From assembly GCF_000186345.1 (NCBI RefSeq), contig NC_014962.1, positions 3,376,450 to 3,440,449 of the forward strand: DNA of 64,000 nucleotides. The letters are read 5' to 3'. Positions 3,577 to 9,145 of this stretch are shown in pieces (the first letter of the stretch is position 1; each line of letters starts with the position of its first letter). Source of the DNA: Isosphaera pallida ATCC 43644. GTDB taxonomy: Bacteria > Planctomycetota > Planctomycetia > Isosphaerales > Isosphaeraceae. The notes under the pieces were generated by a model that was not told the DNA's origin, did not search any database, and saw only the letters and a list, made by a program, of their open reading frames with translations. A program made the position numbers and the translations under genes.

Positions 3577-4398
3577 TTATGAACCCAGTCCTGCTCGAAA
3601 AGCGGCAAGGATTGAGGAGGCGAATTGCTCGCCGGTCAGTAACAGCGCCGCGACGACTGCGGCAAACCGCAACGGCATGGTGGCCGCCAGCGCGCCGACG
3701 TGGGGCAACGCGCGGGCGGTCCAAGCCAGACCAACCGCCGCGACAATCAGCGCCGCAGCGGGAATTGCGGCCAATTCCAGACAAAGGGTCAATGCGTGGC
3801 AAATCTGATTAAGCAGCACGGCGAGGAGGTCAGCGAGGGGTTCGGTGGAGAGGGGGGCATTCCACCAGGTTCCCGGAGGATGCTGGCGAAGCCCGCGCCA
3901 CAGGGCGCGGGTCAGCGCTAGGGGTCCGTCTAGGGTGATGAAGATCGCCACGGCGGTCCAGCCGTGAAGGCGTCCGAGTGGCGAGGCGTCGGGATCGTCG
4001 CCGTTGGGAGCCAACCAGACGTCGGGCGAGAGTCCCGCCTGCACCGCCAACAGATCCCCCGCGCGTCGTGCGGCGGCGACAACCCATCCGGTGCCAAGTC
4101 CCAAAACGCCGCCGTAGACCAGTTCCAGAGGCAGCAGGACGCCCCAGTGTTCCAGCGCGACGCTGGACTCGCCGATCGTCGAGGCGGAAGGTTCGTCGGT
4201 CGCCGCCGCCGATCCCGAACCCGTGGCGGCGAGGACGGCAGCGAGGAGAGCCAGCATAAGGCGCGTTCGCCAATCCAGACCCCAACTCGATCCCCCCCAG
4301 GCCGCCGCGGTTAAGGCCAGTCCCAACCCCCGCGCCGCGGCCAACAAGGGCAGGCCGCCGTGTTCGAAAAACCAGGCCATTCCTCGATCCCAACTCAT
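3577..4398 (-). CDS. fliR: Flagellar/type III export gate protein FliR
   Basis: A 273-residue hydrophobic protein matching FliR/SctT, the polytopic component of the export gate in the inner membrane. Several strongly hydrophobic stretches are visible, including the N-terminal segment around residues 15-35, a central one with GLGTGWVVAAARRAG, and two near the C-terminus. Length is typical (250-270). It is the last gene of the leftward fliF-fliG'-fliO-fliP-fliQ-fliR cluster, 82 bp behind fliQ. FliR is the most divergent of the three gate proteins, so family assignment leans partly on position directly after fliP and fliQ. No clear Shine-Dalgarno precedes its ATG, which suggests dependence on upstream translation or leaderless-like initiation. 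Confidence 0.85.
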   Translation of the reverse strand: MSWDRGMAWFFEHGGLPLLAAARGLGLALTAAAWGGSSWGLDWRTRLMLALLAAVLAATGSGSAAATDEPSASTIGESSVALEHWGVLLPLELVYGGVLGLGTGWVVAAARRAGDLLAVQAGLSPDVWLAPNGDDPDASPLGRLHGWTAVAIFITLDGPLALTRALWRGLRQHPPGTWWNAPLSTEPLADLLAVLLNQICHALTLCLELAAIPAAALIVAAVGLAWTARALPHVGALAATMPLRFAAVVAALLLTGEQFASSILAAFRAGLGS

Positions 4399-4480
4399 GG
4401 CATGTCATGTTCTGAACGGGTCATGGCCCAGTCGTGGGCGTAGCGAAGATGATGTTAATATTCTCAAAATCACAAAAGGG

Positions 4481-4750
4481 TCAGAGCAGATAATCGGGTA
4501 AGGATTCGATCAAACGCGCGGCGAAGGTTCCCCAGGTGGCCGCCATCCAGGGAGCGAGCGCGAAGATCGCCGCGGCGATTGCCAACAACCTCGGCACGAG
4601 ACCGACGACTGGATCGTTGAGTTGGGTCATGGTTTGCATCGCGCCGACCACCAGACCGACCACCAGACCGACCGTCAGCAGCGGCCCTCCCAGCCAGAAG
4701 GCCATGAGGATCGCGTCGCGGGTCCATTGCGTTGCCGTTGTGGCATCCAT
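4481..4750 (-). CDS. fliQ: Flagellar/type III export gate protein FliQ
   Basis: An 89-residue protein with two membrane-spanning hairpin helices, the classical FliQ/SctS size and shape. The first helix region reads AFWLGGPLLTVGLVVGLVVG, followed by the conserved turn AMQTMTQLNDP, which matches the family pattern Q-x-x-T-Q-x-N-(D/E). The second helix contains LPRLLAIAAAIFALAPWM-like residues. It forms the export gate with FliP and FliR. An AAGGAG Shine-Dalgarno sits 9 bases before the ATG. The 82-bp spacers on both sides are the only gaps in the export operon. Confidence 0.93.
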   Translation of the reverse strand: MDATTATQWTRDAILMAFWLGGPLLTVGLVVGLVVGAMQTMTQLNDPVVGLVPRLLAIAAAIFALAPWMAATWGTFAARLIESLPDYLL

Positions 4751-4832
4751 GCCATGGGACTCCTTGCGTGTTTGAAGGACTTGGGTTGGCCGCTTTGCGA
4801 GCCGAGGGGATCCAGGTTTCGACCTGTCGCGC

Positions 4833-5576
4833 TCACGACTCGAAGGAGCGCAACAAGGTTTGGGCCACCAGCCACCAGCCTTCGGCCAGAACGAAAACCA
4901 TCAGTTTGAGTGGAATGGCGACCTGGGCTGGCGGCAGGAGATAAAGCCCCATCGCTGCCAGCACCGCGGCGGTAACCAGGTCGATCACCAGGAACGGCAA
5001 ATAGATCGCAAAGCCCATCCAAAGCGCGACGTTGATCTCGCTGATGAGAAAGGCGGCGGCCACCACCCGCAAAGGAAGTTCGTCGAGATATTCCGGCTGA
5101 TGGGTCCGGGTCTCGGGCGGTTCGGCCAGGTCGTGCAGCGTGATTAGGTAACGCTCGTTGCTGCAGGCGACGATCTGTTTGACCATGAACCGCTTTACTG
5201 GCTCAGCTCCCGCGGCGAACGCCTGGGCGTAGTCAAGTTCGCCGGCCGCGAACGGGCGGATCGCACGCTCGGCCACCACGTCGGCCACCGGCTTCATGAC
5301 CAGGATCGTCAAGAGGATCGAAAGCATCATGACCACCTGATTGCCTGGAATCTGGGGAGACCCCAGCGCCTGGCGGAGCAGAGCCAGCACAATCGAGATC
5401 CGCACGTAGGCGGTGAGCATCAGCACGGCGGCGGGGGCGAGGGAAGCGATGGCGACCACCCCCACCGAGGCGGCGGAGCGGGCCAGATCGGGAGGCAGCG
5501 GTCCCCAGCCTTCACTGGCTCCGGCCGACGTTTGAGCGAACCAAACCGCGGCCGCGGTTGCAACCACCATCGTCAT
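4833..5576 (-). CDS. fliP: Flagellar/type III export gate protein FliP
   Basis: FliP/SctR forms the core of the secretion gate. The diagnostic segment with RISIVLALLRQALGSPQIP, then NQVVMMLSILLT, is present near residues 60-95. The C-terminal signature with IYLPFLVIDLVTAAVLAAMG and LPPAQVAIPLKLMVFVLAEG is nearly canonical. The N-terminus (about 20 residues) looks like a cleavable signal sequence, as in E. coli FliP. The frame can start at GTG 5579 or ATG 5576; the ATG lies 8 bases from AGAGG and is preferred. The start overlaps the fliO stop codon, so translation is probably coupled. Length (247) is normal. Confidence 0.95.
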   Translation of the reverse strand: MTMVVATAAAVWFAQTSAGASEGWGPLPPDLARSAASVGVVAIASLAPAAVLMLTAYVRISIVLALLRQALGSPQIPGNQVVMMLSILLTILVMKPVADVVAERAIRPFAAGELDYAQAFAAGAEPVKRFMVKQIVACSNERYLITLHDLAEPPETRTHQPEYLDELPLRVVAAAFLISEINVALWMGFAIYLPFLVIDLVTAAVLAAMGLYLLPPAQVAIPLKLMVFVLAEGWWLVAQTLLRSFES

Positions 5577-6175
5577 CACGCCGACCTCTTGGGGGATGCA
5601 GTGGAGATCGTCAAAGACGACCCGTTGAAACGACTCGTGATCGCCGGGGTTTCACCTTGCTCTTGGGCGGAGGGGGGCGTCGTCGTCCGTTCTGCCTCCT
5701 CGATCCACTGATCCAGCAGACTCGGGGCTCCGTCGCCGCCCATGCCGATTAACCAGACGCGGTTCCGTTGACGAACCAGGCAGGCGTGATGACGACCGGA
5801 GAGACGAACCCGCTGGGTGATTCGCAGAGGCGCGTCGTGGTTGGAACCCTCGTCGTGGAGGGAACCGGGACCGAAATCGATCCGCCAAGCGGCTCCCCGT
5901 CGGCCTCGCCAGCCTAGTCCCAAGGCGAGAACAGCCAGTCCCAACGCCAGGGTTCCGCTCCAGGAGAGCGTCGAGGTTGTCTTTTCACTTGAAACGGATG
6001 TGTCATTCGCTGTCGCCGGAGCGTATCGAGGACGTTCCATCGGGCCGGACGTTTGAGCCTGGGCATCTCGCCCGATGGAGAAGATCATTGCGATGAGACC
6101 CAAAAGTGTTGGGACCAACCGACGACGCGATCGCATGCGACCGTCTGGTGGCCGCAGAGCGGTCGTGATGGTCAT
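5576..6175 (-). CDS. fliO: FliO-like export assembly protein
   Basis: A 199-residue protein with an N-terminal signal or anchor helix (about residues 20-40), a second membrane helix (WSGTLALGLAVLALGLGWRG, about 70-90) and a small C-terminal beta-rich domain containing RITQRVRLSGRHHACLVRQR and VWLIGMGG. That last pattern (basic strand, 'LVRV..R.WLIGV') is the FliO/FliZ fold that helps FliP assemble. The fold is also shared by C-terminal FliN-type domains, so the name rests on the helix arrangement and position directly before fliP. Both ends overlap neighbours by four bases (ATGA with the fliG-like gene, TGA/GTG with fliP), a sign of strict co-translation. Confidence 0.75.
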   Translation of the reverse strand: MTITTALRPPDGRMRSRRRLVPTLLGLIAMIFSIGRDAQAQTSGPMERPRYAPATANDTSVSSEKTTSTLSWSGTLALGLAVLALGLGWRGRRGAAWRIDFGPGSLHDEGSNHDAPLRITQRVRLSGRHHACLVRQRNRVWLIGMGGDGAPSLLDQWIEEAERTTTPPSAQEQGETPAITSRFNGSSLTISTASPKRSA

Positions 6176-6723
6176 GGCGAGGATCCTCCCGAAGGGGCAT
6201 TGAAGGGGGGACGGTTTGGAGGGGGCGGCGGCAGGGTGATGCGGCCCAAGTCGTGAAGCCGGCCAGCGCGTCGGACGATCTCGCGTTGGGCATCGATGGC
6301 TTGATCAATCCGCACTCGACGGAACCGAGCCAAGGCGCGTCGGAGGGGTTCAGAGCGTGAGGGGGGGCGTTCTAGGGCTTCCAGGACCCGGCGGGTCAAG
6401 GCTCTGGGGGCGGCGGCCAGGGCAACGGCCCAGAGATCGGCCTCCTCGGGCCGGGCCAGGTCGCGGAGCGCATCGGTGTCGAGCCGGGCGAGGTCTTCGA
6501 AGCCGAACCGCAACCGTCGCTCCGCTTCGGCGAGGAACTGGTCGCGGACCCGCTCGCGTTCGTCCGGGTCGATCTGATCGAGTTCAGACATCGCCTGGGT
6601 GAGGGCGTCCACCGAGGCGGCATCCAGACGGTCCCAGACGGGGCCGAGGGATTCTGGTTCCAAGCTGGCTAACAGGATCGCCGCCTGGCGGGTGGGGTTG
6701 GACGCGGGGACGTCGGTGACCAT
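6172..6723 (-). CDS. Shortened FliG-like rotor/switch protein lacking the middle domain
   Basis: Only 183 residues, against about 330 for FliG. Residues 10-60 match the FliG N-terminal domain that binds FliF (RQAAILLASLEPESL, then a helical segment ending IDPDERERVRDQFL). Residues 72-165 match the C-terminal motor domain (GFEDLARLDTDALRDL, LWAVALAAAP, RVRIDQAIDAQREIVRR). The middle domain with its EHPQ motif is absent. In the torque helix, the aspartate pair of the usual LRDDL is replaced by LRRAL, and the LKGA lysine is alanine, so torque generation as in E. coli is unlikely. It lies 6 bases after fliF with a GGGAG Shine-Dalgarno, and overlaps fliO by 4 bases. A C-terminal proline-rich tail is unusual. 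Confidence 0.8.
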   Translation of the reverse strand: MVTDVPASNPTRQAAILLASLEPESLGPVWDRLDAASVDALTQAMSELDQIDPDERERVRDQFLAEAERRLRFGFEDLARLDTDALRDLARPEEADLWAVALAAAPRALTRRVLEALERPPSRSEPLRRALARFRRVRIDQAIDAQREIVRRAGRLHDLGRITLPPPPPNRPPFNAPSGGSSP

Positions 6724-6729
6724 GGCGGC

Positions 6730-8553
6730 TCACTCCCGCGACCCGAAACGGGGGAAACCGGAGGGACCGCCCGCCGCGACTCCCACTGGGATTGGTTCGA
6801 GGTCGAACTCGCGCGCTGAGTCGGGGGGGCAATGAGCCACGCCCGACTTCAGCCAACGCGACAGCACCCCGGCGGCCACTTCGGGATGGTCGCGTACGAT
6901 CCGGCGGACCCGTTCCCACGGCGGCAGTTCGGTTTGGGATGGCGCAGGGGCGTTTGGGTGGTGTCCTGCGGTTCCTCTCAACCGACTTCGACCCCATCGC
7001 CAACCCAGAATCAACCCCAGCGCCGCGGCGGCCAGTCCCAAGGCTGCGGCGATCGCCTCCGGCCAGGCTTGAGCATAGCGCTCCAGGTGATCCAGCCATG
7101 ATGAAGCGCGACTGGGGTAGGCATTTGAAGGGGGACTAAGAGGGGAGCGGGAGCCCGAGACGGTTGAAGAGCGGCTTGAGCTTGAAGAGGAGGGAGGGGG
7201 GGACGACGACGTGGACGGGCTGGAGGGGGTGGGTTCGATTTCGACCCGAACCGCGCCTCGACGGTTATCGGGAATTTCCTCGGCGACGATCCGCCGCACC
7301 TCGGCATCGAGTCGTTGGCGGGCGTCGGGGGGAGCGCCAGGTGAGGAGCCTCCAGTCTTGGCGTCGGGAGACACCACCACCACGACGTCGTAACGTGGAC
7401 CCGAAGCGGTGGAATGACCCGACCCGGCGGCCTCGTCGGGATTAGCGAAGGGGAGACGGATCGGCGTGTTGAGGGTGAGCGTCGGTGCCGGGGAGGAGGC
7501 GGAGGCGGCGGACGGCGCGACCTTGGGATCGCCGTCGGGTGAATGTGGCGCGCCGACCGATTGGGGATCGATCTCGACCCGCACCACGGCGTGTGGCAAC
7601 CAACCTAGGCGTCGAGCCAGACGGGTTTGCAGGTCGCGGACTTCGCTGTTGGTCTGCGTGTCGGCATTGGCCAAACTGGTCTGGGACTCGTCGGAGTGGG
7701 TTTGGGCGAGGGATGGAGAGGCTTGGGCCGGCAAAGGTTTGAGACGGTCGGAGCGGGCGGCGATCGCTTGGGGTGGGGCGTCGGAATCGTGGGACCACTC
7801 GAAGCGGGCCAGAGTGCGGGCGTCGAGCAGCACCAGTTCCCGGAGACCGGGCACCAGACCCCGCAGGATGGCCAGAATGGTGTCGGCAGTGGCCGGGTCG
7901 AGGATGAGGTCGGGCTCCATCTCGACTCGAACGAAACCGCTGACGGGTTCGGATCCCGAAGAACCTAGTCCCCGGGGGCGTTCCAGATGGAAACGGACGT
8001 AGGTGGAGAGGATGCCGGGACACTCCTCTAACAGCAAGCGGGCCTCCTCCTCGCGGGCTTCGTGGAGACGCCGGGCACGGTCCTCGGGAAGCTCGAAGAT
8101 CGAGCCGCCCTGGGCCAGGCGTCGTCGGGTGTCTTCGAGCGAGCGGGGAGCCAACTTCTGAGCTTGAAGCAGTTCTTGGGCTTGAAGGCGTTGTTTCAAA
8201 GGCACACGAACCACGCCGTCGGGGTCGATGGCGGTCGGGATCGCTTTGGTGCTCAGGAGAGCCTCAACCTGAACCCGTTCGGCGACACTGAAGCGATGGC
8301 CTCCGAACAACGGGGTCTCCGGCGTCCCACTCTCTTTCGTGGTCCAAATTACCCACCCCACCATCCCAAGAACCGCCAAGCTGGCTAAAACGACGACGAT
8401 CGGGGTGGGCAGGGGGAAGGGCGAAAGGTGGACAGTGGACGTTCGGGCCGCGCGGTCGAACCGCCAGGACAAGAGGCGACGCGGAGGATCGTTGGCTGAA
8501 CCATTTGACGGGGGAGCCGACGAGGTCGGCACGGCGTTGGATTCGGTTGACAT
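6730..8553 (-). CDS. fliF: MS-ring protein FliF (divergent)
   Basis: FliF forms the membrane ring of the flagellum. The 607-residue protein has a first membrane helix at about 51-72, then a YscJ/FliF-like periplasmic domain that includes the family-typical SIFELPEDRARRLHEAREEE and a ring-building region with ILSTYVRFHLERP. A second helix lies at about 497-518. The C-terminal tail has VRRIVRDHPEVAAGVLSRWL, matching the FliF segment that binds FliG. The central domain is interrupted by long Ser/Pro/Ala-rich tracts, including a near-homopolymeric serine stretch before the second helix. The ATG at 8553 is chosen because GAGAGGTGG lies just upstream; the frame is open 44 codons further, without a site. 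The gene heads the export operon. Confidence 0.85.
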   Translation of the reverse strand: MSTESNAVPTSSAPPSNGSANDPPRRLLSWRFDRAARTSTVHLSPFPLPTPIVVVLASLAVLGMVGWVIWTTKESGTPETPLFGGHRFSVAERVQVEALLSTKAIPTAIDPDGVVRVPLKQRLQAQELLQAQKLAPRSLEDTRRRLAQGGSIFELPEDRARRLHEAREEEARLLLEECPGILSTYVRFHLERPRGLGSSGSEPVSGFVRVEMEPDLILDPATADTILAILRGLVPGLRELVLLDARTLARFEWSHDSDAPPQAIAARSDRLKPLPAQASPSLAQTHSDESQTSLANADTQTNSEVRDLQTRLARRLGWLPHAVVRVEIDPQSVGAPHSPDGDPKVAPSAASASSPAPTLTLNTPIRLPFANPDEAAGSGHSTASGPRYDVVVVVSPDAKTGGSSPGAPPDARQRLDAEVRRIVAEEIPDNRRGAVRVEIEPTPSSPSTSSSPPPSSSSSSRSSTVSGSRSPLSPPSNAYPSRASSWLDHLERYAQAWPEAIAAALGLAAAALGLILGWRWGRSRLRGTAGHHPNAPAPSQTELPPWERVRRIVRDHPEVAAGVLSRWLKSGVAHCPPDSAREFDLEPIPVGVAAGGPSGFPRFGSRE

Positions 8554-9145
8554 CCCCACCTCTCCCGTTGGGGTTGGTCCGGCGTAAGTCGCGGCGCCGC
8601 GGTCTTGTGACCGATTTGAGCTGAGTTGTCGGTCGGATGAGATTCGGACGCGACGACCCCTCCCTGGGTTCACCCCGCGGTGCATGGTCCAGGCGGTGGG
8701 GTGTGCTACCTCAAGCCGCCCATAGCGTCAACTCCAATCATCCGTGAGCGGCGTGGGCGTGGAGTGGAAGGTTGAATTTTCGAGGACGATCGGCAGCGGA
8801 AGGTTCTTTCGATGGAAGGGAAGAAATCCAAACAGGTGAGGATTGAAGGGGGCTGGCGGTTCGCGTGACAGAATCGCTATGCGGTGGGGTTGTGAGGCTT
8901 GGGTTGACGGCGAACGCGGACCTGATAGGGTTCACCTCGTGTCGCGGGGGTGGGCTTCGCTTCTTGGGTGAGTGAGGACCGTCGCGGCGACGTCCGACGA
9001 ACTTGCCCCTCGGGCTGTTTTCTCGGATTCGTTCAGTCCGCTCGTCACTCCAACCAACACAGGGTTAGGAGGGCCAATCGGTCGAGAGCGAGTGGGTGGT
9101 TCGATCGACTCCCAGTTTGGTTTCGTCAGGAAGGAGTTCGCGCCG
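8554..9145. other. Divergent intergenic region between fliF and a lipoprotein gene
   Basis: About 590 bases that must contain the leftward promoter for the export operon and the rightward promoter for the lipoprotein. I see no convincing -35/-10 pair. A TTGACG hexamer at 8904-8909 lacks a matching -10 box at 16-18 bases. No gene or repeat is recognised. Confidence 0.35.

Follow-up and report, generated by a model that had tools for sequence, protein, structure and literature searches.

A flagellum-type export operon with a shortened FliG in Isosphaera pallida and the Isosphaeraceae

The operon and the closest described systems

The flagellar origin of non-flagellar type III secretion is usually treated as a single event (PMC3459982). 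A flagellum-related core with neither needle nor secretin, the latter being used by pili and type II secretion (T2SS) as well, is known in the 'needleless' type III secretion system (T3SS*) of Myxococcus xanthus (the Myxo group of Abby and Rocha) and has been described as a complex that resembles a sorting platform (PMC12075869, PMC3459982). The non-flagellated Lysobacter enzymogenes carries the export genes of a flagellar type III secretion system (FT3SS), keeps FliI and secretes flagellin when this is supplied (PMC7277350). Flagellar parts without swimming are also found in Chlamydia and Buchnera, where the subsets kept differ from the one described here: FliI, FlhA and FliF in Chlamydia pneumoniae (PMC2830194), basal-body structural proteins and export machinery in Buchnera (PMC8109811). 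In this work we analysed a stretch of 64,000 nucleotides (the window) of Isosphaera pallida ATCC 43644, in which fliF, fliG, fliO, fliP, fliQ and fliR follow one another in that order on the minus strand, between positions 3577 and 8553. In our view, its products probably form the membrane core of an export apparatus that derives from the flagellum, does not rotate, and has been kept by the Isosphaeraceae since before the radiation of the family.

The six genes were recognised by Pfam and by reading of open reading frames (ORFs), and are all open with a coding signature (Table 1). The start of fliF is placed at ATG 8553, which has a good ribosome-binding site and is preceded by GGAGAGGTGGGG; a longer ORF begins at 8685. 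A FliF homologue of the family (locus L039) matches YscJ_FliF at 9e-19, and sequence comparison shows the FliG-binding tail motif to be kept in nearly all FliFs of the family. The constituent protein families are already known. None of the gate and ring proteins reaches its NCBIfam equivalog cut-off, and within this limit flagellar models score higher than injectisome models (FlhA 685 bits vs SctV 472, FliP 189 vs SctR 139, FliQ 60 vs SctS 43, FlhB 48 vs SctU 40), which indicates that the core proteins are of the flagellar and not the injectisome type.

The Isosphaeraceae system resembles planctomycete flagellar export in having FliF with a FliG-binding tail, FliO, FliP, FliQ, FliR, FlhA, FlhB, FlhF and a FliA-type sigma factor. 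It differs from the planctomycete flagellum in that rod, hook, filament and FliI are absent and MotA_N was not found, in that FliG has lost its middle domain and torque charges, in that FlhB appears not to be self-cleaving, and in that FliM and FliN are fused in the relatives of I. pallida and absent from I. pallida itself. The fused protein of the relatives is similar to the SctQ of injectisomes, with a degenerate SpoA1, a SpoA2 and an internal start. In contrast with injectisomes, however, the Isosphaeraceae have FliG, FliO and FlhF, their SpoA2 is nearer to FliN, and they have no SctN (TIGR01026 is over its cut-off in 0/36 genomes; on an F1 beta subunit the SctN model reaches 213 bits, its cut-off being 605); a SctQ-type fused C-ring protein was not found in I. 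pallida with the family profile. By the features tested, the I. pallida system therefore belongs to neither the flagellum nor the injectisome: the export gate (FlhA, FlhB, FliP, FliQ, FliR) is present, and rod, hook and filament, FliI, a full FliG and FliM/FliN are each missing. In our assessment it would work most like the Myxococcus T3SS*, from which it differs by having FliG and a flagellar-type core and no FliI, whereas Myxococcus has SctN. Compared with Lysobacter, FliI is absent and FliG is remodelled. We regard the system as a previously undescribed form of type III export that descends from the flagellum and is shared by one whole non-swimming family. A comparative study of four Isosphaeraceae noted only a 'poor representation' of flagellar genes (PMC5352709), and no paper describing the system was found in a literature search without most subscription journals.

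Domains and torque residues of the short FliG

The 13 short FliGs of Isosphaeraceae were aligned with 19 full-length FliGs from other planctomycetes. In the short FliG, the first ~60 residues of the N-domain are joined to FliG_C at the helix 'RRL(R/C)FVFDD', so that three parts are missing: the end of FliG_N, the entire middle domain including EHPQ, and the beginning of the C region. E. coli FliG has five torque positions, K264, R281, D288, D289 and R297. By alignment, four of these five charges are lost in I. pallida (K264 to A, R281 to S, D288 to R and D289 to A), and R297 is retained. The loss extends to the family, as all 13 short FliGs have A or G in place of K264 and lack the acid pair, whereas R281 and an acid at 288 are present in all 19 full-length proteins. 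An earlier sequence-only reading of the operon had assigned the six genes, which Pfam confirms in this order, and the FliF tail, which the sequence shows; its coordinates agree with the fliF start at 8553. It had noted the change of LRDDL to LRRAL and of the LKGA lysine to alanine, which the alignment bears out, the loss of these charges being family-wide. It had also described FliG as an N-domain plus a C-domain; the middle domain is indeed absent, but the N-domain is only partial.

Without the charges that face MotA and the middle domain that binds FliM, the short FliG is probably unable to generate torque. The joint retention of FliF and FliG_C could be taken to indicate a rotary device that has no filament and is driven by other stators, but the disappearance of K264 and of the acid pair from every FliG sampled in the family makes this extremely improbable. 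MotA_N also has no match in I. pallida or in any of the 36 family genomes, a weak test given that the model misses 10 of the 23 genomes of other families, some of them flagellated. About ten family genomes carry a second gene, of ~102-108 codons, which encodes FliG_C only and overlaps the end of the short fliG (FliG2).

Gene content of the genome and of the family

The I. pallida genome consists of two contigs (5,529,304 bp, main contig 5,472,964 bp). The sequence-only reading had found neither flhA nor flhB in the window; this is correct for the window, but both genes lie elsewhere, flhA in an flhA-flhF-fliA cluster that provides the flhF and FliA-type sigma factor genes, and flhB in a truncated form. 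The absences of fliM, fliN and flagellin that it reported extend to the whole genome. FliM and FliN were detected neither by PF01052 (SpoA/FliMN_C) nor by our family profile A2, rod/hook (PF00460) and flagellin (PF00669) gave 0 matches, and the best FliI-like match is an F1 beta subunit (TIGR01039 780 bits vs FliI 223). Profile searches identified one FliG only, so that the short gene is not a redundant copy beside a full-length FliG with a full flagellar set. The proposal of a ring and an export gate that no longer rotate a filament is thus supported genome-wide, and the pattern holds across the family; the secretion or surface device that was also proposed would be one candidate role. I. pallida IS1B was described as gliding, with numerous pili and no flagella (PMC3072084). 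In conflict with this, a published table has flagella 'Yes' in the column that shows the I. pallida genome size (PMC12288469); we followed the strain description. No consensus match to a sigma-28-type promoter was found upstream of fliF, flhA, f12 or spoA (f12 and spoA being genes of the relatives described below), and models of anti-phage defence found nothing.

The family-wide comparison included 36 Isosphaeraceae genomes (I. pallida and 35 others) and 23 Planctomycetia of other families; absences rest on profile searches in assemblies that are 85-100% complete. FlhA and FlhB are each present in 35/36 family genomes and FliG in 34/36, most FliG matches beginning at profile position 9-15, and a single SpoA (PF01052) protein is found in 30/36. 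Flagellin is detected in none of the 36, compared with 20 of the 23 others, and FliI over cut-off in none, compared with 21 of 23; the three weak FliI matches that were checked are F1 ATP synthase beta subunits. Rod/hook proteins are missing from 34/36 family genomes and present in 20/23 others; within the family, G003 is a poor-quality assembly without the gate, and G015 has one weak partial match. Locus order is conserved in about 20 genomes.

The SpoA protein of the relatives has ~400 residues, with a FliM-like core, a SpoA1 domain that is degenerate when read by eye, and a C-terminal SpoA2. Immediately before SpoA2, about 10 of 11 SpoA genes have a start codon accompanied by a Shine-Dalgarno-like sequence. 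In the one protein scanned, the best NCBIfam model was SctQ, below cut-off, and a search of PDB sequences placed the SpoA2 domain closest to FliN. Most likely, this protein is a FliM-FliN fusion that arose separately from SctQ. The gene directly upstream encodes a family-specific protein, f14, which is present in 30/36 family genomes and 0/23 others and is absent together with SpoA from I. pallida, G005, G009 and G010. When f14 was compared with our own profiles, FliG alignments took ranks 1-3 of 52 (27.7 bits, against 19.9 for the next non-FliG profile and at most 17.6 after column shuffling), and the alignment falls on the EHPQ part of the middle domain, where f14 has a conserved ESPAV/EHPQ-like motif; hhalign gives a probability of 5.7, and the canonical FliG subset alone scores 19.2, against 19.4 for reversed FliG. 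Kinship of f14 to the FliG middle domain is thus a lead, too weak to be claimed. Weak PDB matches of f14 to FlhB and alphaRep were not accepted; in Pfam the best match is a weak one to HEAT (0.049).

A second family-specific protein, f12, is small and Cys-rich, with an apparent signal peptide and a conserved EWVLKKK. It is single-copy in 34/36 family genomes, found in 0/23 others and absent from I. pallida; its gene often adjoins fliF or flhA, and also a gene whose large membrane-protein product looks ArnT-like by eye. In relatives, the SpoA/f14 locus is flanked by genes that resemble lgt and panC by eye and by a small ferredoxin-like gene. In I. pallida, the flhB locus (L051:8940-9872, minus strand, equivalent to G000:C2:1240939-1241871) lies beside these genes, so that flhB occupies the site expected for SpoA/f14.

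Table 1. Coordinates of the operon and of related features (plain numbers, window; C2, I. pallida genome; L, loci of relatives)
Feature	Position	Strand	Remarks
fliF, MS-ring protein	6730..8553	-	~607 aa; YscJ_FliF Pfam 1e-4 (weak)
FliF C-terminal FliG-binding tail	6841..6927	-	ERVRRIVRDHPEVAAGVLSRWLKSG / LPPWERVRRIVRDHPEVAAGVLSRWLKSG; identified by sequence
fliG, short	6172..6723	-	183 aa; partial FliG_N + FliG_C, no middle domain; Pfam FliG_C 3.8e-17, FliG_N 1.1e-11
LRRAL, torque-helix segment of fliG	6331..6345	-	LRDDL in E. coli, LREEM in flagellated planctomycetes
fliO, divergent	5576..6175	-	199 aa; FliO Pfam 0.0021 (weak) and operon position; 4-bp overlap with fliG
fliP, export-gate pore protein	4833..5579	-	Pfam 1.8e-58; 4-bp overlap with fliO
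fliQ	4481..4750	-	Pfam 1.3e-19
fliR	3577..4398	-	Pfam 1.9e-22; alternative start 4380
flhA	C2:1975216-1977417		within flhA-flhF-fliA cluster
flhB, truncated	C2:1241092-1241865		without C-terminal domain
FliG2, FliG_C only	L034:10591-10899	-	equivalents in L035, L042, L043, L045, L046, L049
f14, family-specific	L054:10796-11680	-	~290 residues; directly upstream of SpoA gene; equivalents elsewhere
f12, small Cys-rich protein	L039:4308-4931	+	equivalents elsewhere

Export gate, selection and possible function

The NPTH site of FlhB, or a close variant (NPTE, NPLH), is present in 12/12 FlhBs from flagellated genomes of other families and in 0/21 aligned Isosphaeraceae FlhBs, several of which, including that of I. 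pallida, have no C-terminal domain; the family FlhB is therefore predicted not to be self-cleaving. In FlhA the motifs RISEVAARFxLD and DGAGKFVRGD are intact; these motifs hold residues that are essential for proton-coupled export in Salmonella. Simple pairwise dN/dS estimates between close relatives (Nei-Gojobori) gave, for a Singulisphaera pair, 0.060 for FlhA, 0.085 for FlhB, 0.155 for FliR, 0.045 for FliQ, 0.31 for FliP, 0.12 for FliG and 0.21 for FliF, compared with 0.12 for lgt and 0.13 for panC, two neighbours of the SpoA locus. The apparatus genes are under purifying selection in these relatives, with low values similar to those of neighbour genes. In the FlhA tree all 20 sampled Isosphaeraceae form one clade (100/100) beside flagellated planctomycetes, which fits vertical descent from the planctomycete flagellum with one loss of the axial parts.

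These data bear on the idea that the genes are a decaying flagellar remnant without present function, at least in I. pallida. The progressive losses in I. pallida (SpoA, f14, f12, the FlhB C-terminal domain) and the long FlhA branches of I. pallida, G010 and G005, all without SpoA, are in its favour. Every gene is nevertheless open with a coding signature, the same subset is retained in 35/36 genomes, dN/dS is housekeeping-like in relatives, and the FliG2 proteins of two Singulisphaera species show no difference over 102 residues at a dS of 0.2. Moreover, two planctomycetes of another family without flagellin (G052, G058) lost FlhA, FlhB, FliG, SpoA, rod and flagellin all together, so that the subset kept by the Isosphaeraceae is a distinct outcome and not a default end state. 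We regard a functionless remnant as rather improbable.

In the export apparatus that we favour, FliF would form a ring, and the short FliG would be anchored to it by way of the FliF tail and the FliG_N core, which are both retained. FliP, FliQ and FliR, with FlhB and FlhA encoded elsewhere, would form the gate. Because there is no FliI, export, if it occurs, would have to run on the proton motive force, for which the charged cluster of FlhA is intact. Export is compatible with a lack of FliI, since in Salmonella secretion through the flagellar gate can proceed, if conditions are suitable, when ATPase activity is missing (PMC4230889). As no rod, hook or filament would be exported and the cleavage site of the FlhB switch is lost, the apparatus probably either serves a single class of substrate or builds a short structure that is not homologous to these parts; ordered flagellar assembly appears excluded, as far as profiles can tell. 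In most relatives, the fused SctQ-like FliM-FliN and f14 would constitute the cytoplasmic part, and I. pallida, which has lost both and is the most reduced version seen, would have ring and gate only.

Several points weigh against this interpretation. I. pallida is devoid of SpoA, f14, f12 and the FlhB C-terminal domain, and its FlhA branch is the longest in the family (1.3); its copy may therefore be under relaxed constraint, the dN/dS values coming from relatives only. In addition, the absence of rod and hook was established by profile searches, and the case as a whole is built from sequence data.

Two other functions can be considered. Instead of exporting anything, the proteins might provide a scaffold in the membrane, or a regulator, on which type IV pili or gliding depend; a precedent is non-flagellated L. 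enzymogenes, where flhA, flhB, fliI and fliR affect twitching (PMC7277350). The gliding and the many pili of I. pallida, and the lack of FliI and of the FlhB switch in the Isosphaeraceae, would agree with such a role. However, purifying selection still acts on the charged cluster of FlhA and on the gate proteins in relatives, motile swarmer cells are said to be lacking in relatives that have this system, and in the loci read no adjacent gene was recognised as a pilus gene; we find this role unlikely. Alternatively, the retained set of FliPQR, FlhA, FlhB and a ring, which includes the flagellar export core implicated in nanotubes and hat-shaped structures (PMC9380563), might build membrane tubes or another inner-membrane body. 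This model does not require a short FliG or SctQ-like parts, and no such structure is known in Isosphaeraceae. Nanotube biology is itself disputed, and we judge this possibility very unlikely.

The history of the system can be pictured, tentatively and with somewhat less than even confidence, as a conversion of a flagellum, made by the Isosphaeraceae on their own, into a non-flagellar, ATPase-free type III export machine, in parallel to the injectisome. FliM and FliN would have been fused into a SctQ-like protein with an internal start, the FlhB switch lost, torque discarded, and the FliG middle domain removed and perhaps replaced by f14, with I. pallida as a further reduced ring-plus-gate version. 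If true, this second family-wide conversion, with living stages that have or lack the SctQ-like part, would allow the order of losses to be tested. It would provide a natural case of a flagellar-type gate kept under selection without FliI, relevant to the question of whether the proton motive force suffices by itself, and would supply a candidate system for secretion or surface assembly in non-motile planctomycetes, for which none has been named.

A planctomycete of another family (G053, f5) was found to have FliF and FliG apparently fused in a protein of 780 residues that contains the EEHPQ of FliG_M (L069:12631-14973, minus strand). No flagellin or rod/hook gene was found in this genome and its FlhB is without the cleavage domain; it keeps FliI, FliH-like and FliJ-like genes, and looks to be a second reduced system.

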